From Leifsonia sp. ZF2019 (lineage in GTDB: Bacteria; Actinomycetota; Actinomycetes; Actinomycetales; Microbacteriaceae): a stretch of 64,000 nucleotides of DNA. Where the stretch lies: NCBI RefSeq assembly GCF_019924635.1, contig NZ_CP065037.1, positions 1,302,001 through 1,366,000 on the forward strand, written 5' to 3'. The position numbers and the translations under genes are program-made. This document shows positions 43,569-62,967 of the stretch, piece by piece. Below the pieces are notes generated by a model, which worked only from the letters and a program-made list of their open reading frames with translations, was not told the DNA's origin and searched no databases. Position 1 is the stretch's first letter, and every line of letters begins with the position of its first letter.

Positions 43569-43642
43569 CGGGATGTGGCGCAGCTTGGTAGCGCACCTGA
43601 CTGGGGGTCAGGGGGTCGCAGGTTCAAATCCTGTCATCCCGA
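43569..43642 (+). tRNA. tRNA-Pro (anticodon GGG)
   Basis: 74 nt. Acceptor CGGGATG/CATCCCG, D stem GCGC/GCGC, anticodon stem CCTGA/TCAGG with loop CTGGGGG (anticodon 43603-43605), T arm GCAGG-TTCAAAT-CCTGT, discriminator A. No encoded CCA. It is the attachment site of the island that follows; its 3' half recurs at 54135 and 62525. Confidence 0.95.
43612..43636. other. attL core in tRNA-Pro
   Basis: 25 nt (starts GGGGTCGCAGG, ends ATCCTGTCA) identical to 54146-54170 and 62536-62560. Confidence 0.8.
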
Positions 43643-44500
43643 CAGAAAAGCCCAGGTGAGAGTACGTTTCTTTCCTGGGCTTCGTCGTTCCCGTCCGAGG
43701 GTTTGTGGGGACCTCCACGGGCTAGATTCCGTTGCGTCACGATGTCCACACGTGGGTGGGTTGCCACGCGCCGGGACACAGCCGGGACCGGTGCCCGATT
43801 TCCGGCTCGTGAGGCGGATCACCGGTGTGGTGAGGGCCGCGTCCCGCCGGAGGTTCGGAAGGGTGCCTGCCGCTGTTCTTGGGCGTCGAGGAATGCGTTG
43901 GCCTGTTCGGCGGCGGAGGCGAGGTGGCGAGTGTCGGGGTGCAGATAGCCGCGGGTGGTCTCGATGGATTTGTGGCCGAGGAGACATGGCGTATTGGCGT
44001 TTGAACGCGCGGCTGGCAGCCGATCGGCTCGACCAGCCGGATTCGCGGGCGGCGACGGCCACAGACAAATGTTGGGTGGATAGCAGGTGCTTCATATGCT
44101 CCAGTCGGGTTCGCCAGATCAGCGCGTCAGGCCCGAGTCCTAAGTGTTCGCTATGAATCCGCGTGAGTTGCGACTTCGAGAGCGGCGCGCATTTCGCAAG
44201 CTCGTCGACCGTCCAGAGATGGCGTGGTGAGTGCTCCAGTGCGCGCACTACTTCGGATGCCCGCTTCGAGAGATTCCCTATCTTGGCTCCTTCCCGGTCA
44301 GGAGTATGCACGCGTGGGAGAAAGTCTGTCGCTGATGCACGGCGGGCCTCAGCCGCTGAGATCCTGTGGAGTATGTCAGCCGCCAGGGCGACCATCCCGA
44401 GCTCGTCACCCCGCCCCCAGCTGCAACGCGAGAGCAGATGGGCGGGACGAGCGCAGGCCGTTTCGGCATGCCATCCAACGAGTGCTCCGTGTGTAGGCAC
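43634..44500 (-). CDS. AraC-family regulator with 3' end replaced by unrelated sequence
   Basis: The frame gives 288 residues. The AraC helix-turn-helix pair runs from about 80 to 172 (WTVDELAKCAPLSKSQLTRI, then SVAVAARESGWSSRSAASRAF) and ends FKRQYAMSP. From about residue 173 it becomes an Arg/Pro-rich out-of-frame reading of an integrase gene and ends at the tRNA, so the original C-terminus is lost. The start is uncertain; ATG at 44395 would drop 35 unconvincing residues. May be a pseudogene; the DNA-binding part is intact. Confidence 0.5.
   Translation of the reverse strand: MPTHGALVGWHAETACARPAHLLSRCSWGRGDELGMVALAADILHRISAAEARRASATDFLPRVHTPDREGAKIGNLSKRASEVVRALEHSPRHLWTVDELAKCAPLSKSQLTRIHSEHLGLGPDALIWRTRLEHMKHLLSTQHLSVAVAARESGWSSRSAASRAFKRQYAMSPRPQIHRDHPRLSAPRHSPPRLRRRTGQRIPRRPRTAAGTLPNLRRDAALTTPVIRLTSRKSGTGPGCVPARGNPPTCGHRDATESSPWRSPQTLGRERRSPGKKRTLTWAFLSG
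43648..43682 (+). terminator. Terminator after tRNA-Pro
   Basis: AAGCCCAGG (43648-43656) pairs with CCTGGGCTT (43674-43682), 17-nt loop. Confidence 0.65.
43819..43983 (-). pseudogene. Tyrosine integrase C-terminal remnant
   Basis: Minus-strand codons read LLGHKSIETTRGYLHPDT then HLASAAEQANAFLDAQEQ and stop at TGA (43821-43819). GHKSIETTRGYLHPD is the end of a phage-type tyrosine recombinase, including the nucleophilic Tyr. Upstream of 43983 the frame is lost and AraC-like sequence begins. It lies 180 bp from the tRNA, as expected for the island integrase. Confidence 0.75.
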
Positions 44501-44576
44501 GGCGCGGTCGCACTCTCATCGTCGTCGATCGCGAGGACTCGGTGTATCGCGCAGATGGGCCGAGCGCGGTGTTGTA

Positions 44577-44590
44577 TCGAACTGTTTCGA
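44577..44590. promoter_or_regulatory. LacI-type operator 1
   Basis: TCGAA-CTGT-TTCGA, 17 nt before the small membrane gene. Same layout as sites at 44824 and 47759. Confidence 0.65.
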
Positions 44591-44607
44591 GTCTGCAAGC
44601 TCGGACC

Positions 44608-44775
44608 ATGACGAAGATTGTTCTGTATTACGTGGCGGCGGCGGCGTTCTTCATCGCCGCGGGAGCCAGCGCGCTCGGGGCCCAGTGGGTTCTTGCGGGT
44701 GCCTTCGCAGCAATCGGGGCCGCCTTCTTGGTCATCGCGATCCGTTCGGGTCGAAAGACGCCACCGACACAGTAG
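44608..44775 (+). CDS. Small two-helix membrane protein
   Basis: 55 residues: helix 1 about 3-20 (IVLYYVAAAAFFIAAGAS), helix 2 about 26-45, then a basic tail SGRKTPPTQ. It follows a TCGAA-N4-TTCGA operator and lies 113 nt before the secreted hydrolase gene, which has its own operator. Family not recognised. Confidence 0.55.
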   Translation: MTKIVLYYVAAAAFFIAAGASALGAQWVLAGAFAAIGAAFLVIAIRSGRKTPPTQ

Positions 44776-44823
44776 GCGGGCCAGCGCGCCGGACGCTGTC
44801 CCTGGTGAGTCTGGGGCATTGCG

Positions 44824-44837
44824 TCGAAAAACTTCGA
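44824..44837. promoter_or_regulatory. LacI-type operator 2
   Basis: TCGAA-AAAC-TTCGA, extended to GTCGAAAAACTTCGAC, 51 nt before the hydrolase ATG. Confidence 0.65.
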
Positions 44838-44888
44838 CTCTCACACTGATCCTCGGCGTTTCCGCCTCAACGATGAGGAGTCGATTGA

Positions 44889-47727: not shown

Positions 47728-47757
47728 TGCCGCTCCGTCCGCCGAATCAACTCTTGT

Positions 47758-47773
47758 ATCGAAATATTTCGAT
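47758..47773. promoter_or_regulatory. LacI-type operator 3
   Basis: ATCGAAATATTTCGAT, a perfect 16-bp palindrome between the divergent regulator and esterase genes. Confidence 0.8.
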
Positions 47774-47806
47774 TGCGCACACTGTAGTCGAGAGGACGGT
47801 GAAACT

Positions 47807-48844
47807 GTGTGGGAACTAACGAAGACCGATCCGTTCGTCATCGAACTCGATCGTCGCCTCGGGACCGGCGGGGTAAGGATGCCGACGGACCCGGTTGCTC
47901 GCCGCGAGCACGTACGGGAAGCGGATGCGCGCGCGACAGCGCTCATGCAGATCGACGCGCCGGACGTGGCGAGCGAGGACCACGTCGTTCCCGTGGCGGA
48001 TCATCCCGCGGTGCGGGTGCGTGTGTTCTGGCCGTGGCCCGCGGCGAACCGGGACGAGGCGGTGGAGCCGCTTCCGGTCTTGGTGTACTTTTTCGGCGGA
48101 TCGTTCACGATGGGCGGCATCGACTGGGCCGGATGGGACGCGGTCTACCGTGCCCGCGCCGCGGACGCAGGTGTGATCGTGGTGGCGGGGGAGTACGCGC
48201 TCGCTCCGGAGCATCGGTTTCCGGCGCAGCCCGAGCAGTGCTGGGCGGTCTTTGAGTGGGTGCACGCTCATGTCGCGGGGCTCGGCGGTGACCCCAACAG
48301 GATCGCTCTGGGTGGGGCGTCGGCGGGAGCGAACCTCGCTGCGGCGGTCGCCTTGATGAACAGGGACCGCAACAACCGCGCGGTGCGGCTCCAGATTCTG
48401 GAAGTGCCGGTGCTGGATCTGACGCTGCGCCATGTAGACCCTGGCGCGATTTCTCCCCTCCTGCCGCAACGTGTCGTCCGCCGAAGCGGCCGACAGGTCG
48501 TCCGCGACTATCTCGGACCAGACCCGGCCACTCGCCGTGATCCCTACGCGTCCCCCCTGCTCGCTGCCGACCTCGGGGGTCTCCCGCAGACCGTCATCTA
48601 CACCGCCGAGAAGGACCCGCTTCGCGGCGACGGGGAGTCCTACGCGCGCGCGTTGCTCGATGCGGGAGTGCCCACGACGTGCGTGCGCTATCTGGGGCAG
48701 ACCCATGGCTCCGGGGGATACCGACGGAACACGGCCGCCGCCGACCATCTGCATCGAGACGTCGTGGCTTCGCTGCGCGCGATGAGAGAACCCGCCCCGA
48801 CCTACCCGCGCGCACCATCCATCACACAGGCCGCGCGCTCATGA
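47807..48844 (+). CDS. Alpha/beta hydrolase, HSL-type esterase
   Basis: 345 residues, no signal peptide. The oxyanion motif is VYFFGGSFTMGG (HGGG is altered to FGGS), the elbow is LGGASAGANLA (GxSxG form GASAG), with Asp in YTAEKDPLRGDG and His in GQTHGSGG. Hydrolyses a carboxyl ester in the cytosol. GTG at 47807 follows GAGAGGA; ATG at 47879 is a later possibility. Its stop overlaps the next esterase ATG by 4 nt. Confidence 0.8.
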   Translation: MWELTKTDPFVIELDRRLGTGGVRMPTDPVARREHVREADARATALMQIDAPDVASEDHVVPVADHPAVRVRVFWPWPAANRDEAVEPLPVLVYFFGGSFTMGGIDWAGWDAVYRARAADAGVIVVAGEYALAPEHRFPAQPEQCWAVFEWVHAHVAGLGGDPNRIALGGASAGANLAAAVALMNRDRNNRAVRLQILEVPVLDLTLRHVDPGAISPLLPQRVVRRSGRQVVRDYLGPDPATRRDPYASPLLAADLGGLPQTVIYTAEKDPLRGDGESYARALLDAGVPTTCVRYLGQTHGSGGYRRNTAAADHLHRDVVASLRAMREPAPTYPRAPSITQAARS

Positions 48845-49824
48845 CGATGCCCACAAAGTTCGACGTGGCGATCGTACGGTGGGCCGGACGCATCGAAGAG
48901 CTCGCCGCCGACCTGCCGGACCTGTCCAGCACGGACTTCTCTGCTCGCCGTGTGGCGGAGAAGACTCTTTCCGATGAAGTGGCCCGAGAGTTCACCACTC
49001 CGGCAGCGCCCGAGGTGACCGTGTCGGCCGTCGAGATTCCCATCGCGAAAGCTGCCCCGATTCGGGCCCGACTCTATCGACCCGAGCACCTGCTCGGCAG
49101 CGCACCGACGCAGCTGTTCCTTCACGGTGGAGGCTTCGTATCCGGCACCGTCGATGAGCTGATCAATGACCGACTCCTCACGTTCCGTGCCCGAGCCGCC
49201 GATATCCAGATCCTCTCCATCGAGTACCGCCTTGCTCCCGAGCATCCGTACCCGGCGGCGGTCGACGACGTCCTCGCCGTGCTCGCCGCCCTTCGCGACA
49301 ACCCGGGGTTCCTGTCCGTCGATGCGACCCGCGTGGGTGTCGGCGGTGCATCGGCGGGCGCGAGCATCGCCGCCAGCGTCGCGCTGCGCGTGCGTGCGGA
49401 CGGCGGGTTCGCACTCCTCCACCAAGCCTTGGAGGTGCCCGCCCTCGCCCTGCGCCCGATGGGGGAGTCAGCCGCCCTGTACGCGCGCGGGTACGGGCTG
49501 GACGGGTACGAGCAACTGGGGGCGCTCTATCTCCCCGATCCGAGCCCGCCGGACGCCTATGCCGAGCCCGCTCTACTGACGGATCCGATGGATCTGCGGG
49601 GACTGCCCGAGACCTGGATCCAGGTAGCCGAACACGATCCGCTGCGAGACGCGGCACTGACCTTCGCGGAGGCTCTGCGACGCGCCAATGTACCCGTCAC
49701 CGTCGAGGTCGGCGAGGGCCACGTTCACGGATCGCCGGGACTGACCGCCGTGTTCGAACCCGCCCGCCGCTGGCAGCGCCACCTCGCCGCTACCCTCCGC
49801 CGCGCCTACCACCCCGCTACCTGA
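48841..49824 (+). CDS. Alpha/beta hydrolase, HSL-type esterase
   Basis: 327 residues. Classical LFLHGGGFVSG oxyanion loop, elbow VGGASAGASIA, Asp in VAEHDPLRDA and His in GEGHVHGS. IEYRLAPEHPYPAA is the family strand. Paralogous in type to the preceding gene and coupled by ATGA; the two probably act in sequence on related esters. An MFS gene follows 30 nt downstream. Confidence 0.85.
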   Translation: MTMPTKFDVAIVRWAGRIEELAADLPDLSSTDFSARRVAEKTLSDEVAREFTTPAAPEVTVSAVEIPIAKAAPIRARLYRPEHLLGSAPTQLFLHGGGFVSGTVDELINDRLLTFRARAADIQILSIEYRLAPEHPYPAAVDDVLAVLAALRDNPGFLSVDATRVGVGGASAGASIAASVALRVRADGGFALLHQALEVPALALRPMGESAALYARGYGLDGYEQLGALYLPDPSPPDAYAEPALLTDPMDLRGLPETWIQVAEHDPLRDAALTFAEALRRANVPVTVEVGEGHVHGSPGLTAVFEPARRWQRHLAATLRRAYHPAT

Positions 49825-49854
49825 CCAAGCCAGCCACAACTCTTGGAGACGATG

Positions 49855-51153
49855 ATGTTTTCCGCCACACCCGCACCGACACCCGCGCCTCGAGCAGCCA
49901 CGGACACCTCTTCTCCGCTGCCGGACGACGCGCCTGGCGTCCCTCAACCACGTCTGTTCCTGCCGCTGTTCATCTTGGCGTGGTTCGGCGTCACCTTCGC
50001 GCTGGGCACGATCAGCGGTGCCTCCATACCCAAAGCCCTCGCCTACCTCGACGATGCCGGCAAGGCCACGAACCTGTCCGTGATCGCCGCGATCGGGGGG
50101 GTCGTCATCATCGTGACGACGCCGTTGTTCGGACGGCTCTCCGACCGGACCATGTCTCGCGCCGGGATGCGTAAGCCCTGGCTGGTCGGCGGCACCCTCG
50201 TGGCGGTCGTCGGCGTCGTCATCCTCTCCACCACACAGGGGGTGGCGTGGACGATCATCGGGTGGGTGACGGTGCAGACCGGATTCAGTGCCACCAACAT
50301 GGTCATCCATGCCCTCCTCGCCGATCAGATATCGGCCCGCATCCGTGCGCGCGTCGCCGCTGCCGCGGGGGTGGCCACCGGGCTCGGGCTGATCATCGGC
50401 GCGCAGGTCATGGCGATGCTGCCCAACGACGCCCAATGGACGTGGTTCGCGGTCCCCGGGCTTGTCGGCGCGTTGCTCAGCGTGGTGATGATCTTCAGCT
50501 TCCGCGACATCGTCCGCACCGAGCGCGCTCCCCGCATGCGGTGGGCCGACGTGGTGTCCACCTACTGGCTGAACCCGCTGCGGTATCGCGACTTCTTCTG
50601 GGCGTGGGCATGCCGGTTCCTGGTAACAATGTCCATCACCGCCATCTCCACCTACCTGCTCTTCCTCATCCTCGACCGCCTGGACATCCCCATCGAGGAC
50701 GCCTCTGGTGTGCAGGCGATGGCACTTCTCATCTTCAGCGTCGGCAACATCGTCACGGCGATCTTGTTCGGCTGGATCTCCGACCGCACCGGAAGACGCA
50801 AGATGATCGTTCTTGCCTCGAGTCTGTTGAGTGCAGCGGGGCTGGCGATCGCGATGATCGCCCCTGACGTCGGTGTGTTTCTCCTTGGCATCGGGATCGT
50901 CGGAGCCGCGCAGGGCGCGTACGTCTCGGTCGATGTCGCCCTGATGACCGAGGTGCTGCCCAGTTTTGCCGAGGCCGGCAAAGACCTCGGAATCGTCGCC
51001 CTGTCCTACCAGATCCCGCAACTCCTGATCCCCATTCTGGCTCTACCTCTCCTCGCTGCAGCGGGAGGCAGTTACGACCTGTTCTTCATCGCTGCGATCG
51101 TCCTGGCGATCGTCGGCGGGCTCGCTGTCATCCCTATCCGCTCGGTTCGCTGA
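49855..51153 (+). CDS. MFS transporter
   Basis: 432 residues, 12 membrane helices after a 45-residue Pro/Ala-rich cytosolic start. [18 protein letters not shown] is the loop 2-3 motif and [15 protein letters not shown] the loop 8-9 copy. ATG at 49855 is preferred (GGAG with 6-nt spacing) over ATG at 49852. Fourth step of the LacI-controlled run; it likely imports the substrate freed outside by the secreted hydrolase. Confidence 0.85.
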
Positions 51154-51215
51154 GTCGGGTGTGCAGATGGCGACTCAACTCGGGTAGCACTGCCGTCGAT
51201 GAAAGGAAAAACACC

Positions 51216-51969
51216 ATGACCATTCCTGCGACCGGTCGATTCCCCAACGACTTTCTCTTCGGTGTGGCCACCGCCGCCTACCAGATCGAAGGTGCCGCCC
51301 ACGAGGACGGCAGAAGGGACTCCATTGGGTACACCTTCGCACGACTCCTCGCAGCTATTCTCGACGGAGCCACCGGAGACGTCGCCTGCGACCACTATCA
51401 CCGCTACCGGGAGGATGTCGCGCTCATGGGCGACCTCGGAGTGAACGCGTACCGGTTCTCCACCTCGTGGGCCCCGGGTGCCCCGACGGCACCACCCCCA
51501 ACCCGCGAGGGATCGACTTCTACAAACGCCTGGTCGACGAACTCTTACATCGAGGCATCACGCCGTGGGGCACCCTCTACCATTGGGACCTCCCGCAGGC
51601 ACTCCAAGACCGGGGCGGGTGGACCAGCCGCGATGCCGTCGACGCCTTCACCGCCTATGCCTTGACGCTGCACGACGCACTCGGCGACCGGGTAGCGCAC
51701 TGGACCACACCGAACCAACCCCAGTGCTCCGCCTTCGTCGGCCATATCGCCGGCCAGCATGCCCCGGGCCATACCTCCGTCGGCGAGGGTCTCCTCGCCG
51801 CTCAACACCTTCTCCTCGCCCACGGGCGCACCGTCCGAGCGCTCGAGACCGGGACGACACCCTGCGGCTGGGCATCACCCTCAACCTGACAGTGGCCGAC
51901 CCGGTCGACCCCGTCAGTACGGCCGACCTCGACGCCGCCAGACGATTCGAGGGTCAATTCGTGGCGTGA
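51216..51969 (+). pseudogene. GH1 beta-glucosidase, frameshifted and truncated
   Basis: Starts [20 protein letters not shown] and continues in frame to AYRFSTSW (about 51470), then shifts to another frame ([36 protein letters not shown], then HTSVGEGLLAAQHL) and again near 51850 (LRLGITLNLTVADPVDPV), ending at 51969. Only about 250 of the usual 450 residues remain; the second catalytic Glu region is missing, and TPNQP replaces the TxNEP acid/base motif. Follows the MFS gene, so the operon once handled a glucoside. Confidence 0.85.
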
Positions 51970-51992
51970 TCCGTGACGCGGTCGATCGGCGG

Positions 51993-52565
51993 TCACGGTG
52001 CGTCCAGCACGGCCTGCAGAGCGAGGGCGAGTCCATTCGCCAACGCGTCGTCGTCGGCATCGACGAGAGGCGGCAACTGAACGACGTATCGGCTGAACGC
52101 GAAGCCCATGATCAGCGAGCTGACCATGCCCGCCCGCAGCGCGGCATCCTGTCCGCCGGGGGGAAGGAAGGGACGCACCTGGCTCTCGAAGATCGAGCGC
52201 ACGCGGGCCGCGGCCTGAGGATCGTGTGCGGACGCGCGCAGCAGAATGCGCAGTGCCCGGCCCGGGTTCTCGCTGCCCCACAGCTCGATGGCGTGACGCG
52301 CGAGGGCTGCCCCGAGATCGCGCGCATCGACGGCTTCGGCGTGGGGGATGTCGATCGTCGGCGTGGTCGCTTCGACGAACAGGCGTTCCTTACTGGCGAA
52401 GTAGCGCACCACCATCGCGGGATCGATCCCGGCGTCGGTGGCGATCGCGCGGATGGTGGTTCGTTCGAAGCCATCGGCTTCGAAGCGGCCGGTGGCTGCG
52501 TGGAGGATCGCGTCGCGTGAGCGTCTGCCTTTGGCAGTGAGCGCGGGTCTGTCGTCAGTGGGCAC
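51993..52565 (-). CDS. TetR family transcriptional regulator
   Basis: 190 residues. HTH at about 17-60 (SRDAILHAATGRFEADGFER, then IRAIATDAGIDPAMVVRYF), followed by a ligand domain. Divergent from the flavin monooxygenase gene with 57 nt between, so it most likely represses that gene. Ligand unknown. Confidence 0.88.
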   Translation of the reverse strand: MPTDDRPALTAKGRRSRDAILHAATGRFEADGFERTTIRAIATDAGIDPAMVVRYFASKERLFVEATTPTIDIPHAEAVDARDLGAALARHAIELWGSENPGRALRILLRASAHDPQAAARVRSIFESQVRPFLPPGGQDAALRAGMVSSLIMGFAFSRYVVQLPPLVDADDDALANGLALALQAVLDAP

Positions 52566-52584
52566 GATCCCAAATTAGCAACAA

Positions 52585-52622
52585 GCGTTGACTTTTGTGT
52601 GGGTGTCTGAAATTGTCAACGC
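52585..52622. promoter_or_regulatory. Inverted repeat between tetR-type and monooxygenase genes
   Basis: GCGTTGAC (52585-52592) and GTCAACGC (52615-52622). Each arm contains a -35 (TTGACT on plus, TTGACA on minus), so it may be two facing promoters, a TetR operator, or both. Confidence 0.55.
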
Positions 52623-53816
52623 ATGGTGACTTCTACTCCTCCCCAGGTCGACGTTCTGATCGTCGGCGCAGGTGCCGTCGGTCTGACCGCGGCAGTCGCT
52701 CTCCGTCGACGCGGTGTCCGCGTCCGAATCGTCGACGCCGCACCCGCGGGGGCCACGACGTCGCGGGCTGCGGTGATCCATGCCCGGACCCTGGAGGTCC
52801 TCGACGAGATCGGGGTCGCCGCGCGGATCCGCGACGAGGGCGTGGTCGTGCCGGACTTCACTGTCCGCGAGCGTGCGAGGACGCTGGCGCACATCGATTT
52901 CCGCGGCCTCCGCACGCCGTACCCGTTCACTCTGATGCTGTCCCAGGCACGCACCGAGGAGATCCTCGATGCCGCGCTCATCGACCTCGGCTGCCGAGTG
53001 GAGAGAGATGTCGAGTTCGTCTCGTTCGCCGCCCCGGGGCCGGGGGAGCGCGCGCTGCTCCGTCATCGCGACGGAGCCCTCGAGACGGTCGCCGCTCGAT
53101 TCGTGATCGGCGCTGACGGGCTGAGAAGCCGCGTCCGCCAAGAGCGGGCCATCGCCTTCGACGGGGACGAGTATGAGGCATCCTTCGTCTTGGCGGATGT
53201 CTCGCTGAGCTGGCCGCTCCCGGCTGCGGAGGTTCAACTGTTCTTCGGGGAGCGCGGCCTCGTCGTCATCGCACCCCTCCCGGGTGGGCGGCACCGCATC
53301 GTCGCCACGATGGACGACGCCCCGGCGCAGCCGACGGTTGCCGACGTACAGCGCATCCTCGACGACCGCGGACCGGGTGAAGCCGTCGTCCACTCCGTCG
53401 CCTGGAGCTCACGTTTCCGTGTGGCGCACCGGCTCGCGGCGAGGTTTCGGGACGGGAACGTCTTCCTCGCCGGTGATGCCGCCCATGTGCACAGCCCCGC
53501 GGGCGGCCAGGGGATGAATCTCGGAATTCAGGACGCCGTGGCTCTTGCCGCGCTGCTCGCCGATGTCCTTGTAGGCAGCCGCTCCGACGAAGACCTCGCC
53601 GACTACGAGCGCACGCGACGAGCCGCGGCGCGGCGCGTGATCGCACTGACCGACCGAATGACAAGGCTCGCAACTCTCCGCAGCCCGATCCTTCGATCGA
53701 TTCGCAACGCCGTGATCGGCGTACTTCTGCGCTCGCCCCGCCGTCGGAGCGCCCTCGCGCGACGAATCGCCCAGCTCGATGGGCCCGTCGAGGTCACTCC
53801 GCCTCGACGGGGGTGA
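52623..53816 (+). CDS. FAD-dependent aromatic-type monooxygenase
   Basis: 397 residues. VLIVGAGAVGLTAAVALRRRG binds FAD ADP (GxGxxG), the middle DG motif VIGADGLRSRVRQ and the GD motif VFLAGDAAHVHSPAGGQG are intact. Members hydroxylate phenols or similar rings with NAD(P)H. Adjacent to TetR. The ATG at 52623 starts immediately after the inverted repeat and is probably leaderless. Substrate unknown, perhaps the aglycone released by the other island enzymes. Confidence 0.88.
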   Translation: MVTSTPPQVDVLIVGAGAVGLTAAVALRRRGVRVRIVDAAPAGATTSRAAVIHARTLEVLDEIGVAARIRDEGVVVPDFTVRERARTLAHIDFRGLRTPYPFTLMLSQARTEEILDAALIDLGCRVERDVEFVSFAAPGPGERALLRHRDGALETVAARFVIGADGLRSRVRQERAIAFDGDEYEASFVLADVSLSWPLPAAEVQLFFGERGLVVIAPLPGGRHRIVATMDDAPAQPTVADVQRILDDRGPGEAVVHSVAWSSRFRVAHRLAARFRDGNVFLAGDAAHVHSPAGGQGMNLGIQDAVALAALLADVLVGSRSDEDLADYERTRRAAARRVIALTDRMTRLATLRSPILRSIRNAVIGVLLRSPRRRSALARRIAQLDGPVEVTPPRRG

Positions 53817-53835
53817 ACGTCCCAGCCCGCCGCGC

Positions 53836-53994
53836 TCACGAGAGCGCACTCGAGAGCGCCGGGAGGCCGAGGCCGATCACATCGAACGCCCAGTGCCCGA
53901 GAATGAGCGCACCGAGCGTGACGCAGCGGGCTTGCATGACGCCGGCACTGATCGAGCGGCGCAGCCTCATGGAGAAATCGGCGTAGGAGGCACC
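53836..53994 (-). pseudogene. Fragment resembling a CPBP-type membrane protease C-terminus
   Basis: Minus-strand codons read YADFSMRLRRSISAGV and then TLGALILGHWAFDVIGLGL, stopping at 53836. The His-x-x-x-Asp in a hydrophobic end resembles CPBP family proteins. No start is present; upstream merges into the element arm. Rest of the 460-nt stretch 53817-54276 holds the att arm and core only. Confidence 0.35.
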
Positions 53995-54172
53995 TCAAGA
54001 GATCCCCGGAGCCCTCCGCGAGCGCGACCAGGAGGGGATCAGATTCATGGAAACTATGCATCTCGTGACGCGCTTTGCATGATCTTGTGCCCGGAGTTAC
54101 GCGGAAATCGGTCTCGCGGGAGCCATCTGGACGCCTGGGGGTCAAGGGGTCGCAGGTTCAAATCCTGTCAGC
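53993..54172. other. Middle att copy with element arm
   Basis: 54135-54172 repeats the tRNA-Pro 3' half; the 25-nt core is 54146-54170. The 142 nt before it align with 62381-62524 at roughly three of four positions, sharing ATGCATC, CGTGACG and TGCATGATCT blocks. It marks the right end of island 1. Confidence 0.75.
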
Positions 54173-54276
54173 CTGCCGATCTGCAGGCCATCACAACCTG
54201 CTTCCCGACAGCGGATCATCAACTTCTTCTAGATCCCAGTTACGAACCAGAGCGGAGCGGGGCTGAGGACACGAGC

Positions 54277-54459
54277 GTGCCGGGGCCGGACCCGGTGAAT
54301 ACGGCGACTTTCAAGATTTTGCAGAATTACGTCAAGGTCAATCTCGTTCGCCCCGTAGGCGCACCACATATGTGGCACGCAGCCATGCAGAGCAAGGCTT
54401 GCGAACTGACCGTCCTCGGACAGCACTACTGGAAGCTCGTCAAGCAGGGGTTGATCTGA
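54277..54459 (+). CDS. Small protein upstream of the RyR-like gene
   Basis: 60 residues from GTG at 54277 (VPGPDPVNTATFKILQNYVK ... ending LGQHYWKLVKQGLI). Only 1 nt separates its stop from the next ATG. No family recognised. The DNA here is clearly AT-richer than the core genome, as expected for acquired sequence. Start is uncertain. Confidence 0.5.
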   Translation: MPGPDPVNTATFKILQNYVKVNLVRPVGAPHMWHAAMQSKACELTVLGQHYWKLVKQGLI

Positions 54460-54460
54460 G

Positions 54461-54784
54461 ATGGAGGACCAGACCAAAGGGCTAAGGGCCGCGCTAGAGA
54501 GCGATGAGCTCTTGGAGGAGTTGGCGGCCATCGAGCACGAACGGTGGTCTCACTGGCAGCGCTACCTCCATGATCAGTGCACACCTGGACCGGATGGCTC
54601 TCTGATCATTCCGGCGAACCAAGCGCGGCGATGGTCGACGCAGATGAACACGCCGTACAACCAACTATTCGACGACGAACGCGAGAGCGATCGCGAACAG
54701 GTTCGCCGCTACCTTCCGATCATCGCAAGAACGCTAGGTGAAGCTACCACCGACTGCGACGAGCAGCCCGATACAGCGGAGTAG
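54461..54784 (+). CDS. RyR-domain-like protein
   Basis: 107 residues. LAAIEHERWSHWQRYLHDQC, DGSLIIPANQARRWSTQMNT, then YNQLFDDERESDREQVRRYL follow the pattern of the RyR domain found in phage and mobile-element proteins (conserved HExW, SDR). Function in bacteria is unknown; in some systems the domain binds nucleotides or ligands. Second gene of an apparent four-gene unit. Confidence 0.65.
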   Translation: MEDQTKGLRAALESDELLEELAAIEHERWSHWQRYLHDQCTPGPDGSLIIPANQARRWSTQMNTPYNQLFDDERESDREQVRRYLPIIARTLGEATTDCDEQPDTAE

Positions 54785-54793
54785 GGAGCACCA

Positions 54794-55324
54794 ATGGCCA
54801 GTGGCTTTAAAATCAACAAACAGGGCATCCGGCAGATGACCCGGGAGATCGAACGTGAATTCGCCAAGAACCCCGTTCGCGTTCCACTTCAGGCCGACTC
54901 CACTGGAGTTCATCTGCCGCCTGCGACGACGGTCAACAACTACAACGGCCCGGTAGTTACGATTACCGGAGACCATGCGCAGGTCGCATGGAACAATCAT
55001 GATGTCACTCAGTCGCGGGAGACAAGCGAGCAAGTCGCCCCAGGGTATGAGGAACTGGCCGACATTGTGACTCGGCTCTTGGCGAGCCTCCCCTCACTCA
55101 CCCTCGACCTCGACGACGACACGGAAGCGTTGGCCACCAGCGAGACGATCTTGCGTGAGGTGGTGAAGACGGAACCTGACAGAGGCATTGTGAAGCGAGG
55201 CGTCACTATGCTCAAGGGGCTGTTGGCGCCCGTCTCGTCAGGCGTCAGCAAGGCGGTCACTCAGGAGTCTGCTGATCTGGCTCGGCAGATGATTGAGTCA
55301 TTGGGAAACGCGCTTCCGTCGTGA
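54794..55324 (+). CDS. Hypothetical protein of the defence-like cluster
   Basis: 176 residues. N-terminal FKINKQGIRQMTREIEREFA is helical and basic, the middle TVNNYNGPVVTITGDHAQVA is a beta-hairpin-like segment, and the C-terminal half is helical. The NNY-G-N-V-G-A-AW pattern occurs next to effector domains in some defence proteins to my recollection. ATG lies 9 nt after the RyR-like gene with GGAG upstream. Function unknown. Confidence 0.55.
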   Translation: MASGFKINKQGIRQMTREIEREFAKNPVRVPLQADSTGVHLPPATTVNNYNGPVVTITGDHAQVAWNNHDVTQSRETSEQVAPGYEELADIVTRLLASLPSLTLDLDDDTEALATSETILREVVKTEPDRGIVKRGVTMLKGLLAPVSSGVSKAVTQESADLARQMIESLGNALPS

Positions 55325-55447
55325 GCCACGCAGATCAGCAGAATCCGCCAGTTCTCGACCACCCATGCCTCTAGCGAGCAGCCGTACACTGCTGTGCCCG
55401 GTGGCTTGTGGTGACGTCGTTAGGCAGTGGACATCGTTGGCAGGTGC

Positions 55448-56581
55448 ATGAGCATGGTGGGGATGGGAGAGCACGACGAACTCGAGAACCGATACATGCC
55501 AAGGTTCGAGACGTTGCTCAGCGAGAGCGGAGTCGTGGTCGAGTACCGGCGGGACCGCGCCGGTATCGATACAGGGCTGCATCTGTTCGCGCGTGAAGAG
55601 AAGCCCACGAGGCAGGGTGGAGAACGGCCGTACTGGCGTGCGCTCGCCGGCCGGGTGTGGTTTCAGCTCAAGGGCGTCCACGCAGCGACGATGTCCGCAG
55701 ATGAGTTCCATGCAGCCGAGCGCGTCACGGTGAAGGTGGGGGTCAAGCATCTCAGATTCTGGTTCGCCGCACCGGAACCGGTCTACTTGATCGTGTACGT
55801 GGAGTCGGTCGATGCATTCGTTGGCGTCGATGTCCGTGAGCTAGTTGAGCGAGAGTGGGGCCCAACGTTCTACGCTTCCATGCGCGATCGCAGCGGCGAG
55901 GTCACCGCCCATGTACCAACTGCATCGGTCATGAACTCCGAGCGCATCGCATCGCTGGTGAACCATCGCAGCATGCGTATCGACGGGCCGGCATTCCGTG
56001 GGCGCCCGCTTGGACACCGCATGGACCCGCTCAGATCGGTCCTCGCGTACCCCTCGGAGGAGCGTTGGATAGAGATGGTGACCCGTCTCCTGCAAGTCCA
56101 CGATTTCCGCGAGGCGTCACGGCACCAGGTCGGTGAGCTGACGGTCCTTCACGGCGTTATCGCGCAAACGCTGCTATGGCAGTCGCCTGCCTTTGCGGAG
56201 TATGGCTATCGGTATCTGGGGGAGGTGCGTGACGAGCCTGCACCCGAACAAGTCTTCGGCGATGTGCGCGTCATTCTCGACGGAGCCAGAGACCGGACCA
56301 CCTTCTCCGCCGAGGAAGTAGCGGCCGTGTCCGAACTTATCGACGCGGCTGCTACAAACGAGGAATCCGTTGTGCTGTTTTTCCGTGGCCGTGGCCGTGA
56401 CCTCAGCGGCACGGGCGGACTATGGCGCAGCACGGCTCGTGGGTCGATGGCGAACGGTTGGAGCAGAATGTGGCACCAGCTTGGGCTTGAAGCGCTGAGC
56501 TTTCTCGTACTCACCGCCACCCTTGTATACCTTGAGTTCGCGCCGGACCTCGACTGGGATAACGCAAACTATATGGACTGA
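55448..56581 (+). CDS. DUF4365-like putative nuclease
   Basis: 377 residues. ELENRYMPRFETLLSESG, then GIDTGLHLF (Asp about 41) and VWFQLKGVHA (QxK about 73-75) give the PD-(D/E)XK layout of DUF4365. The rest (about 110-377) is a mixed fold with a hydrophobic C-terminal stretch. It would cut DNA in the cytosol. ATG at 55448 preferred; GTG at 55427 is possible. Its end overlaps by 13 nt the end of the opposing large NTPase gene. Confidence 0.65.
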   Translation: MSMVGMGEHDELENRYMPRFETLLSESGVVVEYRRDRAGIDTGLHLFAREEKPTRQGGERPYWRALAGRVWFQLKGVHAATMSADEFHAAERVTVKVGVKHLRFWFAAPEPVYLIVYVESVDAFVGVDVRELVEREWGPTFYASMRDRSGEVTAHVPTASVMNSERIASLVNHRSMRIDGPAFRGRPLGHRMDPLRSVLAYPSEERWIEMVTRLLQVHDFREASRHQVGELTVLHGVIAQTLLWQSPAFAEYGYRYLGEVRDEPAPEQVFGDVRVILDGARDRTTFSAEEVAAVSELIDAAATNEESVVLFFRGRGRDLSGTGGLWRSTARGSMANGWSRMWHQLGLEALSFLVLTATLVYLEFAPDLDWDNANYMD

Positions 56582-59500
56582 TCGAGGGTTCCGGCGTTGG
56601 CAGAGCCAAGATGAACAGCAGGAGCTAGAGAAAGGTCAGTCAGGGCTTGCCAAAGACCCGCCTCGATGGCTGCTGCGGTGGGTCCTTGATCGACTACGTC
56701 GAGCAGTTCCCCAGCGAGTGTCAGAGCCGTGGGCTCTTGCAGTTCCGATTCGACTTGCGCGACCAACGTGCTCAGGGCGGCCCCGAGGACCGGCCCCACG
56801 GAATCTGGCAGTTGTGCGACCGCGGTCTGGGTCGCGATTGCCACTTGGGCGAGCTCGTCGGCAGTTGGCGCTGGTACCGTGGCCGGCCATTCGGCTGGCC
56901 GTCGTCGATGCAGGGCCAACGACCATGACGCGCGGGCTACCGACGCGGTTAGCTCACGGACCTTCTCGGTGGCGGTGTCTGCCGCCTGCGCCAGTCTGAG
57001 TCCGGCAGCCGTGAGGTGCTGTTCGAGAGATTCACCCGCTAGTGGAAGAACGGGGTGCTCACCGTGATGCGCCATGATTACCGCTAGCGGAAGTGGGCGA
57101 ACGCCGTCGACCGCGAGCGCCCATACGTTGCAGTCGAGAGCGTGACGCGCCTCAGCGTCGATGTTGGCCAAGGCATCAACTGTTTCATCCCAGTCCTGTA
57201 GCCCCGCTGTCACCAACCATCCGGTCTGATCGATGCTGCTGGGGAAGGGTGTGGGATCCGACACCGTGCGAAGAACGGCTTCGGGAACGGCGGCTTCGAT
57301 CACGGACAACACCGCGCGTTGTTGCTGCTGGGCTGCGATTGCCGAGGATGCCGTGATCGCATCGACTGTGGTGTGGTCGCCGAATCGGACTGAGCGCCAG
57401 GCGTCGGGGTCGTTTGCGGCGCTGATCGCGGCCCGCGCCAGCCGTTCGAGTTCACTGCCGAGTGCATCGGGGACCGGTTGATCGAGGCCGAAGTATGTCG
57501 GTGTCAGCGATCGCGCATGTTCGACCTTGGCGGCCGCATCTCGAAGCGACATCGCCACCGCGACGCGATTATCGTTCGTCCTGAGATTGCTCAGCGCCTG
57601 CGCGGCGGCCCCGTGCGCTTGCGACACCGGGTCGTTCTGTCGTTGAGCATCGTCCTCGCTGGCGTGGGAGGTGGCTCTTTCCTTCGATCCGTCCTTCGGT
57701 TTGGAGGCTAGTTCGCCGGCTCGCTCGCTTGCAGCTTGCACACGCTCGGCCCAAGCTTGTGCCTGGTGAGACGGGTCGTTGGCCCGTAGCCGGAAGGCGC
57801 CCTCGCTTGCAAGATCGACGAGTGCCTGGGCAATCTGCGACTGTTCGAGGAGCAGGGCTGTCCATGTGGGTGCCGCCGACAGCATCCGGACGGCTCCCTG
57901 GAAGCCGACATTACGTCGGACTCCAGCACGCTCTTTGAAGACCTCACGTGCCATGTGTTTGAAGCCGGGCTCAAACCCTCCGGCCCTGTAACGCCGTCCT
58001 GACGGTGTGATTGTGATGACCTCGACGTGACTTGCTTCTGGGCACGCGAACGCCAACTGCCGCGCCAACGTGACGACGAAGTCGTTGAGGGCATCGCTGC
58101 TGCTTGAGGATGGGGCGTCCCAGGTCATGCCGGGCGACTGCTCCTGAACATCAAGACCATGCATGACCGTCACGGACGGATTAACCTCCATCTGCATGGT
58201 TAACGCGACGGCCGAAGGCTCGGCTCGCGCGATCGCCAGGGCACGGCTCTCCACCGTTCCGAAGGTAGCGTCTCGGTTCTCGGCGGAGACGAATGGGCTC
58301 AGCGCATCGATCAGACGCGCCCAAGCGTCGGCTTGCGTGGCGTTGGTCGGCTCGTCAAACTCCTGGAATACCGCGCCAGCCTCCGATGCGCTGAGCGGCA
58401 CGGTTCCGGCCAGGGCCTCCAAGAGACGGACGGCCTCGACGAGAGTCCCTGTAATGAGCAAGCGCACGACGAGGGCAGAATCGAGCTGCGTGGTAATGGC
58501 TTCCAACACTGGCGAACTACGCGGCGGCAGCGCTCGCGCGATCCGGATCATCTGCGTAGCTGCTCGATCGAACGTTGGTGAGCCGATCGGGTCGAGGGCC
58601 GTGTCCTGGTTGCGAATTCCATAGACGAATGGAGCTATCAGCGTCGGCGAGACCCCAGGAGGGGCGAGGCGTCGAATGATCGGAAGACAGGTGGTGGCGT
58701 ACGCGACGTTGTCCGCCCGCTCGGCTCCTTCGAGGAGTTCGGCCACCCCCGAGGAGGCGGTACCCGGCGCGTGGAGATGACCTGCAACGGCGCCGGCAAC
58801 AGCGACGACGGTCTCCGGGAAGCGTTCGGCGGAGCGACGCAGCAACCAGCCCGCTTCGTCGGCGGGGAGCAGCCGAGCTATAACGCTTAGGGTGTCGCCG
58901 AGCGCAGGGGGTGGGGCGTCGTGAAGCAGAGCGGTCAGGGTCTGCGAACGAAGTTCGTGGAGTCCTGTCCAGATGTCACCGTGGTCGAGAACGACATGTT
59001 CGTTTTTCAGCGTCGCCAGGGCGTCGCCTACCGCGCTGTTGCTTCCAGCGACGGCGGCAAGCGCCTCTCCGAGCATTCGGGCGGTCAACGACAATCCAAC
59101 TGCGTGAGCTGCGAGAACGAGGCGAGCGGCCTCTCGCTGAATCTCTCGTCCAGGAGTCGCCAGCTCGGCGGCTTGTGAGGCAAGGACCTGTTCCAGGTGC
59201 TTGCCTTCGCGCAGCAAGGAGAGGAACTCCATGAGCAGACCGTCACTGCGCGCGAGAGCTTCTGTGGTGGCCATCTTCGTCCTAAGCTCCGCGCGCTCGA
59301 CACGCTCGGCAATCAGCTCAGCGGTGGGGCGGTCGAGCAATGGCCTGATGACACGGGTGCTGCCGTTCAATAGACGGGGGCTGAAGTCCTCTTCGCGTGC
59401 CGCACCGATGACGAAGATATGGGGAACCTCGCGCAGGGCGGCAACAGCATCCGGCCACGCGCTCGTGGAAGGGCGGCCGAGGTTGTCCGCTGCGACGACG

Positions 59501-60153
59501 ACCGGAGAGGTCGCAGTAGCACGAAGCAACTCGACGTGTCGGACCAGCAGCCGGGCGTCCTCGTCCGTAGCCACGCGGGCGACACGAACGACGCGAGCGC
59601 CCAGGATCACGTCGCGGCTTGCGCGCCAGAGGAGCACCGATTTGCCCGAACCGGACGGGCCGACGATGACGGTGTACTCGCCTTCTTGAGCTGCCTGTGT
59701 GATCTGATCCATCTCGTCGGCCCTGATCACATCCAGGCCCTGTGCGATGTGGATAGGCGCCCCGTCCACGCCCAGATAGAACCGGCTGGCGGATGTCACC
59801 CTTGTGGTCGAGTAATCCGCGGGGCGGCACACGCCTGCGGACACCGCAGCGTCCAAGCCGGTCACGTCGACTGCTGACTGGACCACATGCAGCGCGGTGT
59901 CAACGTCGCCGAGCGTTAGCGTTCGAGCCTGATCGAGGCCTAGATGACGTTGGTCTGCACTCGCAATCCCGAAGGCTTCGTACAGCGCGCCAACGGTGAA
60001 TGACGCAACGGATGGATGAACACCCTGTCTATCGCTGAGGAGCGCTTCGGTCTGTTCGCGTAGGTTCCACGGCAACGACACGAGGTGGACACGTCCCAGT
60101 GCAGTGGTTGCGTCTGTTCGGGTCAGGCCCCGGGCGACAAGAGCGTCGACTAG
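56569..60153 (-). pseudogene. Large STAND/Avs-like NTPase, 3' part (IS-interrupted)
   Basis: 1,194 codons. In intact numbering (N-part 159 residues plus this piece, 1,353 in all) Walker A GPSGSGKS is at 324-331 and the Walker B-like VVVAADNL about 377-384, followed by a sensor-like IFVIGAAREED. The remaining 900 residues are helical and repeat-like, without a recognised family, fitting the ligand-sensing half of STAND proteins. A GTG at 60081 could restart translation of this part. The frame runs unbroken to the IS end at 60153 and on into the 5' part beyond the IS. Confidence 0.8.
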
Positions 60154-60201
60154 GGCGTGTTGCTAAACGCATTTGGGTGCGTTGGGGTGAGTCTTGGACC
60201 C

Positions 60202-60579
60202 GTGTCGCGTGATGTGATCTCGGATGAGGCGTGGGCGGTGATCGGTCCGTTGTTCCCATCGGTGAAGTCGACGGGTCGGCCGCCGGTGGATCGGCGTACG
60301 GTGGTCGAGGCGACGGCGTGGCGGTTCCGGACCGGGGCGCCGTGGAGGGATGTGCCGGAGCGGTTCGGGAACTGGAACACGATCTACAAGAACTTCAACC
60401 GGTGGTCCGGGCAGGGTGTGTGGGCGCGGGTGTTGGAGAAGACGCAGTCGCTCGCGCAGCGGTCCGGAGATTTGGACTGGGTCGCGTCGATCGATTCCAC
60501 GATCGTGCGCGTGCACCAGCACGGAGCGACCCTGCCACGCGCCACGGGGGGCTACATCGAACTACAAGAAGTTTGGTGA
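60202..60579 (+). CDS. IS5-family transposase, orfA
   Basis: 125 residues. SDEAWAVIGPLFPSVKSTGR, then ATAWRFRTGAPWRDVPERFG is the DUF4096-type N-terminal domain; SIDSTIVRVHQHG holds the first catalytic Asp. The frame leaves the family pattern at a six-G run (60546-60551) and stops at 60579. GTG at 60202 is the likely start. Confidence 0.8.
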   Translation: MSRDVISDEAWAVIGPLFPSVKSTGRPPVDRRTVVEATAWRFRTGAPWRDVPERFGNWNTIYKNFNRWSGQGVWARVLEKTQSLAQRSGDLDWVASIDSTIVRVHQHGATLPRATGGYIELQEVW

Positions 60580-61084
60580 CGAGCCGCCCGATCACGCGAT
60601 CGGTCGCTCCCGCGGCGGTCTGACGACCAAGAGCCACCTCGTCTGCGACGGGAAGGGCCGCGCGCTGGCGTTCGTTCTCACGTCAGGGCAGACGGCGGAT
60701 ACGAGCATGCTGACCGCGACGCTCAGCGAGATCCGCGTCCCCGGTGCCCGCGGCAGACCACGCTCACTCCCGGACCGAGTGCTCGCGGACAAGGGCTACC
60801 CTTCGAAGGCGAACCGGGCTTGGTTGCGGGAACGAGGGATCGCCGCGACGATCCCCGAGCGCGACGATCAGATCACGCACCGACGCAAGCGGCGCGGGCG
60901 GCCGATCGACTTCGGTGAGCAGCAGCGGGCCCGCTATCGCGGCCGCAACGTCGTCGAGCGGTGCTTCAACAAGCTCAAGCAATGGCGCGGGATCGCGATG
61001 CGCTCAGACAAGACCGCCCGCAACTACTATGCCGGGCTCTGCCTCGCCGCCACCCTCCACTGGGTAGGGACGCTCACGACCTGA
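60545..61084 (+). CDS. IS5-family transposase, orfB
   Basis: About 179 codons in the frame one base later than orfA. RGATSNYKKFGDEPPDHAIG, RVLADKGYPSKANRAWL (second Asp) and RGRNVVERCFNKLKQWRGIA (Glu) complete the DDE set. Joined to orfA by +1 (or -2) slippage on the G run, as in many two-frame IS5 relatives; a chance frameshift would instead mean an inactive copy. Confidence 0.8.
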   Translation, partial: RGATSNYKKFGDEPPDHAIGRSRGGLTTKSHLVCDGKGRALAFVLTSGQTADTSMLTATLSEIRVPGARGRPRSLPDRVLADKGYPSKANRAWLRERGIAATIPERDDQITHRRKRRGRPIDFGEQQRARYRGRNVVERCFNKLKQWRGIAMRSDKTARNYYAGLCLAATLHWVGTLTT

Positions 61085-61103
61085 CGAGCGCGAGGTCGGA
61101 CCT

Positions 61104-61625
61104 TCAGATGTCGAGGTCCTCGACGTCGGGGACCGTGAGCGCTGTCATCGTGGCTTGGACCAGCTCTGGCGGTAACTCGTTCGCCATCGCCGCAGTATCG
61201 GGGAAGACCGACAGAGATCGTTGACCTGACCGCCACCAGTCTTCCGACCACGTCCTTGGGTTGTTCCATACGGGGGCGTCCTCGTGTGGTGAGATGAAGA
61301 GTCGCCAGTTCGGACCCTCGCGCTGGTAGACCGCGATCTGTCCTCCGGAGGTCGCATACACGCGGTAGGTGATCGAGCGCGAACCGTCCTGACTCTCGAA
61401 CCGCAAGAGCTGACGCCCCGTAAAACGCTTCACCGTGATCACCGGGCCATCGCTGACGTCGACTTCGACTTCGCCCATCTTCTCCGCTCCTCGCTCCTGC
61501 TCTCGTGCTGCGACGAACAACCGCAGGCCTGAAGCCACTGCGGCAGAGAGCCCCCCGGCAAGTTCCGCCGCCCGGTCGAATAGCGCCGCATCGTCAGCAG
61601 ACACATACACGTTCCGAGTAGCCAT
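61104..61625 (-). CDS. EXLDI family protein carried by the IS
   Basis: 173 residues ending VEDLDI, the tail that names the family. N-terminal ATRNVYVSADDAALFDRAAE and LAGGLSAAVASGLRLFV form a ribbon-helix-helix-like region; the middle KRFTGRQLLRFESQDG, then YRVYATSGGQIAVYQRE is beta-rich. EXLDI proteins are thought to be regulators. ATG at 61625 lies at the edge of an 18-bp palindrome; ATG at 61631 is within it. It lies inside the IS and converges on the transposase with a 19-nt gap. Confidence 0.75.
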   Translation of the reverse strand: MATRNVYVSADDAALFDRAAELAGGLSAAVASGLRLFVAAREQERGAEKMGEVEVDVSDGPVITVKRFTGRQLLRFESQDGSRSITYRVYATSGGQIAVYQREGPNWRLFISPHEDAPVWNNPRTWSEDWWRSGQRSLSVFPDTAAMANELPPELVQATMTALTVPDVEDLDI

Positions 61626-61642
61626 GCGCATAAGTATGCGCA
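61625..61642. promoter_or_regulatory. Palindromic operator of the EXLDI gene
   Basis: TGCGCATAAGTATGCGCA, a perfect 18-bp palindrome that contains CATACT/TACTTA (-10-like) and touches the ATG. Suggests self-repression. Confidence 0.65.
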
Positions 61643-61701
61643 CATCTTGGAGCCGAGTCAACCGGCCATCTCGATCGCACGACGCTCTTTAGCAACACGG
61701 C

Positions 61702-62182
61702 CTAGGGCGATGCACCGCTCAGGCTGTGCGGCAAGTGGTTCGTCCCATCCGGTGAACTGCAGGCCTGAACCGAGGCTGCCATCGGTGACGATAACGATCG
61801 GGCCGGTCGTCGCATTCATAGCGTGCAGGATCGCGTCGCGGATTCTGGAAGTCTCTAGCTGTCCCGCTCCAGCGCTGACCTCCTTCACCTGCACCAAAGT
61901 CTCGTCGCCTGTAGCTGTGCGACAGTCGAGGTCCTCGAAGCCTTCGGGAACTAGCGTGGTGAACGGCAGGACGCCTGCACGAGACATCACAAGCACGTGC
62001 ACCGAGACAGCAAGTTGCCAAGTGACGCCTGCGACGTTGCGCGAGCCGTGTCTCAGCTTCCCCCATAGCTCTTCGCGGGCGTCGCTGTCCGCAGGGTGTG
62101 GCGGCGTCGGAGCGTTGGCATCTCGTGGCGTGGTCGGGCCTCGTCTACGTGGCCTCTTTCGACCCCTGCCAGACGAACCCAT
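61702..62182 (-). pseudogene. Large STAND/Avs-like NTPase, 5' part (IS-interrupted)
   Basis: 159 codons from ATG at 62182 (GAGGGA 6 nt upstream) to the CTAG next to the IS. After a basic, Pro-rich start of 35 residues comes a PD-(D/E)XK-like domain: GVTWQLAVSVHVL (Gln 56), VPEGFEDLD (Glu 80, Asp 84, Asp 86) and ETLVQVKEVS (Gln 98, Lys 100). This matches the layout of Cap4/DUF4297-type DNA nucleases at the front of defence NTPases. Its frame joins the 3' part exactly (CIA-L-VDALVARG) once the IS and one CTAG are removed. Confidence 0.78.
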
Positions 62183-62215
62183 GGTGCTTCCCTCGCGAAG
62201 GCCTACTCCGGTCGA

Positions 62216-62236
62216 TCGAGCGCGGGTTGCGCTCGA
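62216..62236. promoter_or_regulatory. Palindrome upstream of the large NTPase gene
   Basis: TCGAGCGC-N5-GCGCTCGA, perfect 8-bp arms, 33 nt before the ATG at 62182. A possible operator. The rest of 62237-62380 shows no gene. Confidence 0.5.
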
Positions 62237-62380
62237 CCCATAGAACGACGATAGCGAGGGTGACCGACATCGCAGGCGTCTGCGGCCCGGAGAAGCGCTG
62301 GAGAGTGCTGCCTCCTTGACCGGATCAAGTAGCCGCTGGTCGCGCGATGCGCTCGTCAGGAGAAGCCGGCGTGTGGGGTG

Positions 62381-62565
62381 CCTCAGGAGAGTCCTTCTGC
62401 CTCCTTGGCGAGGGGGACCAAAAGGGGACCAGAAACATGCAAACCATGCATCACGTGACGTGTTCTGCATGATCTGAGGCCCGGAATCACGCGGAATCCG
62501 GCCTGACTGATGCCGACTGGACGCCTGGGGGTCAAGGGGTCGCAGGTTCAAATCCTGTCAGCCCG
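62381..62565. other. attR with element arm
   Basis: 62525-62565 repeats the tRNA-Pro 3' half (core 62536-62560), reading CAGCCCGAC at the end where the tRNA has CATCCCGAC. The arm before it matches 53993-54134. It marks the right end of island 2. Confidence 0.75.
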
Positions 62566-62567
62566 AC

Positions 62568-62635
62568 GTCACGACAAGAAGAGAGGGCCGGAGAGTTCGC
62601 GATGCGAACCTCCGGCCCTCTCTTCTTGTCGTGAC
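62568..62635. terminator. Very long hairpin next to attR
   Basis: 26-bp stem (GTCACGACAAGAAGAGAGGG... 62568-62593 with 62610-62635) plus inner GTTCGC/GCGAAC after one bulged A. Probably the original terminator of the tRNA-Pro gene, now separated from it by the islands. Confidence 0.75.
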
Positions 62636-62759
62636 TCGCTGCGGACTTCCCGGGTCCCCGCCGCGCGGGGCCCCGGGCGCCGTCAAACGCGAAGCGTGCG
62701 GGCGGCGTTTGGGGGAGCGGTGGGGTGCAGCCCGACGTCAGGGCCGTTTGCGTAACTAT

Positions 62760-62954
62760 TTACGAAACCGCCCGAAAGAGAATCGCCCCGGAGAAATCTC
62801 CGGGGCGATTCTCTTTCTGGCGGCCCGTATCTGGGTTGTAGTGCTCGCGGTCGCATCGTCGTACCTTGGGGTCCTTCGGTTCGCTTCGAGTAGCGTTGGC
62901 GATGAACGAGCTGATCTTGCGCATGTTGAACGCCGCAACGATGAGCGTGATCAT
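62760..62954 (-). pseudogene. Possible transposase C-terminal remnant
   Basis: Frame reads MITLIVAAFNMRKISSFIAN and continues for 64 residues, running through the hairpin. The AAFNMRKI...F pattern resembles the end of DDE transposases. No start-side domain is present. Could be noise. Confidence 0.3.
62774..62817. terminator. 21-bp perfect hairpin
   Basis: GAAAGAGAATCGCCCCGGAG... (62774-62794) pairs with 62797-62817 with a 2-nt centre (AA). Lies inside the end of the transposase-like fragment. Likely a bidirectional terminator. Confidence 0.65.
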
Positions 62955-62967
62955 GAACGCACCGCCG

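Follow-up and report, generated by a model that had tools for sequence, protein, structure and literature searches.

Introduction

What did the gene encode that an insertion sequence (IS) has split in Leifsonia sp. ZF2019, and does any of its function survive? The window, i.e., the whole stretch of 64,000 nt analysed here (contig NZ_CP065037.1, positions 1,302,001 to 1,366,000), holds two minus-strand open frames on either side of the IS (Table 1), which the initial annotation, made from the letters alone, had combined into a nuclease-nucleoside triphosphatase (NTPase) of the antiviral STAND (Avs) plan. Our analysis indicates that the family to which this gene belongs is probably an Avs-like single-gene sensor with a DNA-cutting effector, recently inactivated at this locus.

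Results

Alignment with homologues identifies the minus-strand frames 62182-61706 and 60153-56569 as one gene interrupted by the IS. Neither contains an internal stop, as had been stated initially, the first being open over 477 nt and the second over 3,585 nt. The gene sequence was read via natural intact homologues. Relative to the intact homologue P0006 (1,353 aa), the N-terminal (N) piece aligned through residue 159 (133/159 identical) and the C-terminal (C) piece from residue 160 on (1048/1194 identical), with no residue lost or duplicated at the junction, and both flanks of the IS site were present in all 68 aligned homologues. The latter were chosen by length from the 117 found with the 3' piece (P0001), the other 49 being left out, and scoring in the homologue searches was limited to the 8000 candidates with the most shared words. 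Since the pieces meet at residues 159/160 of P0006 and the 68 homologues are continuous, the natural intact relatives give the reading of the whole gene, and the proposal of a single gene split by an IS is upheld. Termination of homologues at the IS boundary was rejected, as none of the 68 aligned proteins ends there (49 of the 117 lie outside the alignment); the uninterrupted relatives whose existence had been envisaged were found, with lengths of about 1,300 aa. Among named homologues of the 3' piece, the best is a 1,252-aa protein of Microbacterium sp. Mu-80 (90% identical). The start codon of the 5' piece was assigned by homology and is not certain, because P0004 and P0010 have about 30 more residues.

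The IS was assigned to the IS5 family from an annotated relative in Microbacterium sp. BDGP8, to which its first 910 bp are 87% identical. The search of the genome recovered eight full-length copies, six chromosomal and two on the 102-kb second contig; this count derives from 40 scored out of 137 candidates, and further copies may exist. The copy in the broken gene is identical to three others; of the remaining four, two match it at 99.87% and two at 99.2%. TA flanks both ends of all eight, with C or T before and G or A after (a YTAR target). A duplication of CTAG, initially annotated together with an IS extent of 60154-61701, was rejected, the outer bases differing between the two sides in four of the eight copies (L004, L005, L006, and L008). 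As only TA is common to both flanks in every copy, CTAG is the target site and TA the duplication; the IS spans 60153-61702, while the net excess of 1,552 nt stays as annotated. The identical copies and undecayed frames also bear out the suggestion that the insertion is recent, and it is part of an IS burst. In a plasmid collection, eight records matched the IS, but only within its transposase half (parts of the first 912 bp), and because of this confinement the passenger gene looks like an added part.

Both frames being undecayed, and a GTG at 60081 being in a position to initiate a 1,170-aa C protein, it is conceivable that the two pieces still form a working split protein, or that the C piece alone regulates. 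We consider this very unlikely: the identical IS copies mark a young insertion, which accounts for the lack of decay, the nuclease piece stops 15 codons into the IS and is severed from the NTPase, and none of the aligned homologues is interrupted at the site. As the IS cuts the nuclease from the switch, the protein should instead be non-functional in Leifsonia sp. ZF2019, and with its gene broken the host is expected to lack the function of the intact protein.

The N part carries the PD-(D/E)XK-like front that had been proposed. The putative catalytic residues E80, D84, D86, Q98, and K100 are invariant in 69/69 rows of the nuclease alignment (A2), H120 being listed with them, and the predicted structure is alpha-beta3-alpha-beta, in fold comparison a PD-(D/E)XK-type fold, with PD-(D/E)XK enzymes among the fold matches. 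Of six relatives searched for PF14130, two scored above the cut-off of 26.2 (L019 and L026, with 31.8 and 27.4), two below it, and two gave no match. The N piece matched DUF4297_antiphage (NCBIfam) weakly (0.097), and profile searches produced LmuA matches in relatives.

For the C part the model shows a STAND-type NTPase, a winged helix following the NTPase core, with EfAvs5 as the top solved-structure match. The annotated P-loop at residues 324-331 is confirmed as GPSGSGKS, and the Walker A and B residues G324, S326, G327, G329, K330, S331, and D382 are invariant in 69/69 rows of alignment A3. PF25199 (nSTAND_NTPase5) matched 20/20 members of alignment A4 at E <= 0.01 (best 3.7e-9), P0006 staying below its cut-off of 34 with a score of 31.5 and P0001 with 28.2, and precomputed Pfam assignment lists it for 109 of the 117 homologues. 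Searching the PDB sequences with the A4 and A2 profiles gave the phosphate-loop protein 6c2u as sole match below 0.001; the others were weak P-loop or helical matches. Structures of Avs3 and Avs4 were not among the 50 listed fold matches of the C part, an absence that excludes neither. That the intact protein is a nucleoside triphosphate-dependent nuclease against plasmids or mobile DNA, or a modification-dependent restriction enzyme, and not a sensor of phage proteins, appears unlikely to us, as winged-helix STAND proteins are the best matches of the NTPase and the Pfam scans made showed no DNA-reading domain.

The tail comprises about 770 residues after the winged helix, not the 900 first given; it is mostly helical, as supposed, with two small alpha/beta parts in the model near C-piece residues 646-735 and 960-1037. 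Self-comparison with hhalign detected no sequence repeats in it (off-diagonal matches above 1% probability: none). Mean pairwise identity among the 68 homologues was 0.57 in the nuclease, 0.42 in the linker (151-284), 0.58 in the NTPase, 0.54 in lid plus winged helix, and 0.28-0.39 in the tail; the corresponding values for nine close homologues were 0.91, 0.88, 0.93, 0.89, and 0.75-0.87. Such a fast-changing C-terminal part would fit a sensor role.

No Avs model was matched in PADLOC by P0001, P0002, six relatives (E <= 0.1), or 20 A4 members (E <= 0.01), nor in NCBIfam by P0001, P0002 (E <= 0.1), or 16 A6 members (E <= 0.01); PADLOC contains an Avs2 model, the Avs types covered by the two libraries being otherwise not established. 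Avs membership by profile was therefore rejected and the broken gene is not filed as Avs1-5, in line with the initial annotation, which could not place the tail in a known Avs type.

Intact relatives, among them genes of Kribbella albertanoniae (L009, 7644-12020) and Marinovum algicola (L041, 6046-9864), occur in at least three phyla, mostly under the names 'hypothetical' or 'ATPase'; other names were 'P-loop NTPase', 'ATP-binding protein', one EcfA2, and one 'Cap4 dsDNA endonuclease', and the L026 relative is annotated as a double-stranded DNA (dsDNA) nuclease domain protein. Part of a Ruegeria plasmid protein retrieved a mainly proteobacterial sister family (366 matches; among 120 listed, always 'hypothetical protein' where a name was shown), the profile of which aligns with the actinobacterial one across positions 32-1227 (E 2.8e-90). 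A more distant relative lies on a Hymenobacter plasmid. Sixteen sequences, spanning at least three phyla, have E80, G81, D84, Q98, K100, and the Walker residues in common. A scan of genome contigs yielded, among the matches listed, one long relative, in Kribbella (L009), short matches (L010, L011) being set aside. Phage records gave no match, and of six stretches from viral contigs none was confirmed. No paper naming PF25199, nSTAND_NTPase5, or nSTAND5, or recognisably describing the family, was found in a non-exhaustive search, which is no proof of absence.

The neighbours of the relatives vary, including PDC-S28 (L009) and TrwC plus ArdC (L036, with L037 and L038 similar to it by gene sizes); for PDC and ArdC genes we assume the usual functions. 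At L039 (3555-12704), a relative stands in a row, all on one strand, with a gene for SIR2, a small one that matches Avs2 weakly (2.5e-4), and one for an LmuB-like SMC protein. Two short relatives (L025, 6121-9435, 1,104 aa; L026, 5977-7875, 632 aa) stand immediately before IS21 elements, and thus loss of the family gene through ISs may be recurrent, two cases being no proof.

The broken gene lies in an island at tRNA-Pro. Window positions 43644-62567 consist of two tandem island segments, with the 3' end of the tRNA present in three copies. In relative genome G013 the tRNA end joins the counterpart of 62525-62732 directly, and in G001 stretches that correspond to 62728-62824 and 62823-62956 come after it; both are island-free sites. 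For 10 of the 27 other genus genomes, the last tRNA base is exactly where the long upstream match ends, several of the genus genomes having extra tRNA-end copies downstream. About 205 bp through the second and third copies (53971-54173 versus 62359-62563) are 78% alike, which suggests that the two segments are related elements. No integrase was found among the scanned genes of either segment.

The second segment holds the broken gene, the DUF4365 gene, and two small genes. Among 28 genus genomes, the DUF4365 neighbour is present in this one only; its role as an obligate partner is not supported, four other genus genomes carrying a distant relative of the broken gene but no DUF4365 match. In the same segment, 54794-55324 encodes a 176-aa protein with weak PADLOC matches to PDC-M14B (2.6e-5) and AbiTi (0.05), which may be a second defence gene. 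A piece of a family-1 glycoside hydrolase at 51467-51889 (profile positions 86-208 of 453) is an apparent remnant.

The distribution bears on whether the protein could be a chromosomal DNA-repair or stress factor, a reading for which Holliday-junction resolvases, EndoMS, and FAN1 among the nuclease fold matches could be cited. Its occurrence is patchy, with matches, own genome included, in 5/28 genomes of the genus (the other four at 28-33% identity) and in 2/199 of a family sample (stricter limit; the three best candidates scored per genome), and it is located in an island bounded by attachment sites here and on plasmids elsewhere, all of which makes such a role highly improbable.

Table 1. 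Features of the window around the broken gene (window coordinates; aa numbering of the intact protein).
Feature	Position	Strand	Basis
tRNA-Pro(GGG), attachment site of island	43569..43643	+	sequence, genome comparison
Repeat of tRNA-Pro 3' end, boundary between two island segments	54135..54173	+	repeat search, genome comparison
DUF4365 gene, same island segment as and convergent with broken gene, ends overlapping by 13 nt	55427..56581	+	Pfam match
3' piece of broken gene, residues 160-1353 plus stop	56569..60153	-	open frame, homologue alignment
C-terminal tail, residues 586-1353, predicted sensor, fastest-diverging large part	56572..58875	-	alignment, self-comparison, model
STAND NTPase and winged-helix part, residues ~285-585	58876..59778	-	structure model
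Walker A GPSGSGKS, residues 324-331	59638..59661	-	sequence, alignment
TA target duplication, left copy (target CTAG)	60151..60152		copy comparison
IS5-family IS, 1,550 bp, one of eight full-length genomic copies found	60153..61702		genome copy comparison
DDE transposase frame of IS (PF01609)	60350..61084	+	Pfam match
EXLDI-family passenger gene within IS (TIGR04342, 3.3e-23)	61104..61661	-	NCBIfam match
TA target duplication, right copy	61703..61704		copy comparison
5' piece of broken gene, residues 1-159; frame extends 15 codons into IS, then stop; predicted product 174 aa	61706..62182	-	homology
PD-(D/E)XK (Cap4-like) nuclease domain, residues 38-150: E80, D84, D86, Q98-x-K100, H120	61733..62071	-	conservation, structure model, fold matches
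Repeat of tRNA-Pro 3' end, right island boundary	62525..62567	+	repeat search, genome comparison

Discussion

According to PMC12931631, the Avs plan places effector, NTPase, and sensor on one chain, with Avs1-4 causing nuclease-driven cell death, and according to PMC12198126 the STAND domain of Avs3 mediates dimerisation of its nuclease domains. The present family resembles Avs proteins, the nuclease-bearing Avs1-4 above all, in having an N-terminal effector, a central STAND NTPase with EfAvs5 as top fold match, and a large C-terminal putative sensor; this order, which the initial annotation had recognised as the Avs plan, is borne out by the models of the N and C parts. It differs from Avs5, the NTPase of which is nSTAND3 according to PMC12931631, by its Pfam match to PF25199, and from Avs proteins by a tail without detected sequence repeats. 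On the basis of the Avs plan and of Avs3 nuclease dimerisation as given in these papers, we infer that the tail of intact relatives would most likely bind a molecule made by an invader, that ligand binding would release the STAND NTPase in the middle of the chain, which would then oligomerise with nucleotide bound, and that oligomerisation would bring the N-terminal Cap4-like PD-(D/E)XK domains together, which may then cut DNA, so that the infected cell would be killed or arrested. Ligand sensing, assembly, DNA cutting, and antiphage protection, and with them a defence function of the family, are thus presumed by analogy.

The nuclease shares its PD-(D/E)XK-type core and E...D...QxK pattern with Cap4/DUF4297 and LmuA nucleases, but is fused to a STAND switch, and no SAVED domain, HerA, or SMC gene was seen among the window proteins scanned. 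The LmuB-type SMC partner of Lamassu was likewise not among them, although an LmuB-like gene adjoins the relative in L039. To plant NLRs, apoptosomes, and other STAND proteins the likeness is at the fold level only, effector and tail being different.

Several observations weigh against an Avs-like nuclease sensor. The best nuclease fold score, 7.8, is middling and within the tool's "common" range, and the top eight matches (AF1548, tRNA-splicing endonucleases, and TBP-interacting protein) include no defence nuclease. PF14130 was not matched by the N piece at E <= 0.1; the sole Pfam match of this piece, to a phage tail-completion family, stayed below cut-off (17.4 versus 24.5) and was taken as chance. 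One LmuA match was equalled by an apolipoprotein A-IV match on the tail (2.1e-4, surely chance) and for this reason weighs little alone. The EfAvs5 match is level with that of an archaeal ATPase, the archaeal ATPases and GLHELR being read here as STAND. P0001 fell short of the PF25199 cut-off of 34 with a score of 28.2, and PADLOC matches of P0001 and A4 were weak and of P-loop type. The divergent linker means that rapid change is not peculiar to the tail. Finally, we have seen no phage-resistance data for any family member. The Avs-like reading nevertheless seems probable to us; as to a narrower version, we see an even chance that the family is a separate, unnamed antiviral STAND lineage, combining a Cap4-like nuclease, an nSTAND5-type switch, and a non-repeat, alpha/beta-containing sensor in at least three phyla, with a ligand unlike those of Avs1-5.

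Conclusions

The family looks like a further member of the antiviral-type STAND proteins that appears to work like Avs yet stands outside the Avs1-5 models; the suggestion that the intact form may be a new member thus gains from the Avs-like plan in the models and from the lack of a match to any Avs type in two libraries. The locus points to a large, conserved, and by present searches apparently uncharacterised family of single-gene nuclease sensors that is common in actinobacteria, where, to our knowledge, defence is less explored than in enterobacteria, and of which natural intact members exist. The broken copy shows a gene loss shortly after the event, and bears on the cost of self-destructive immunity.
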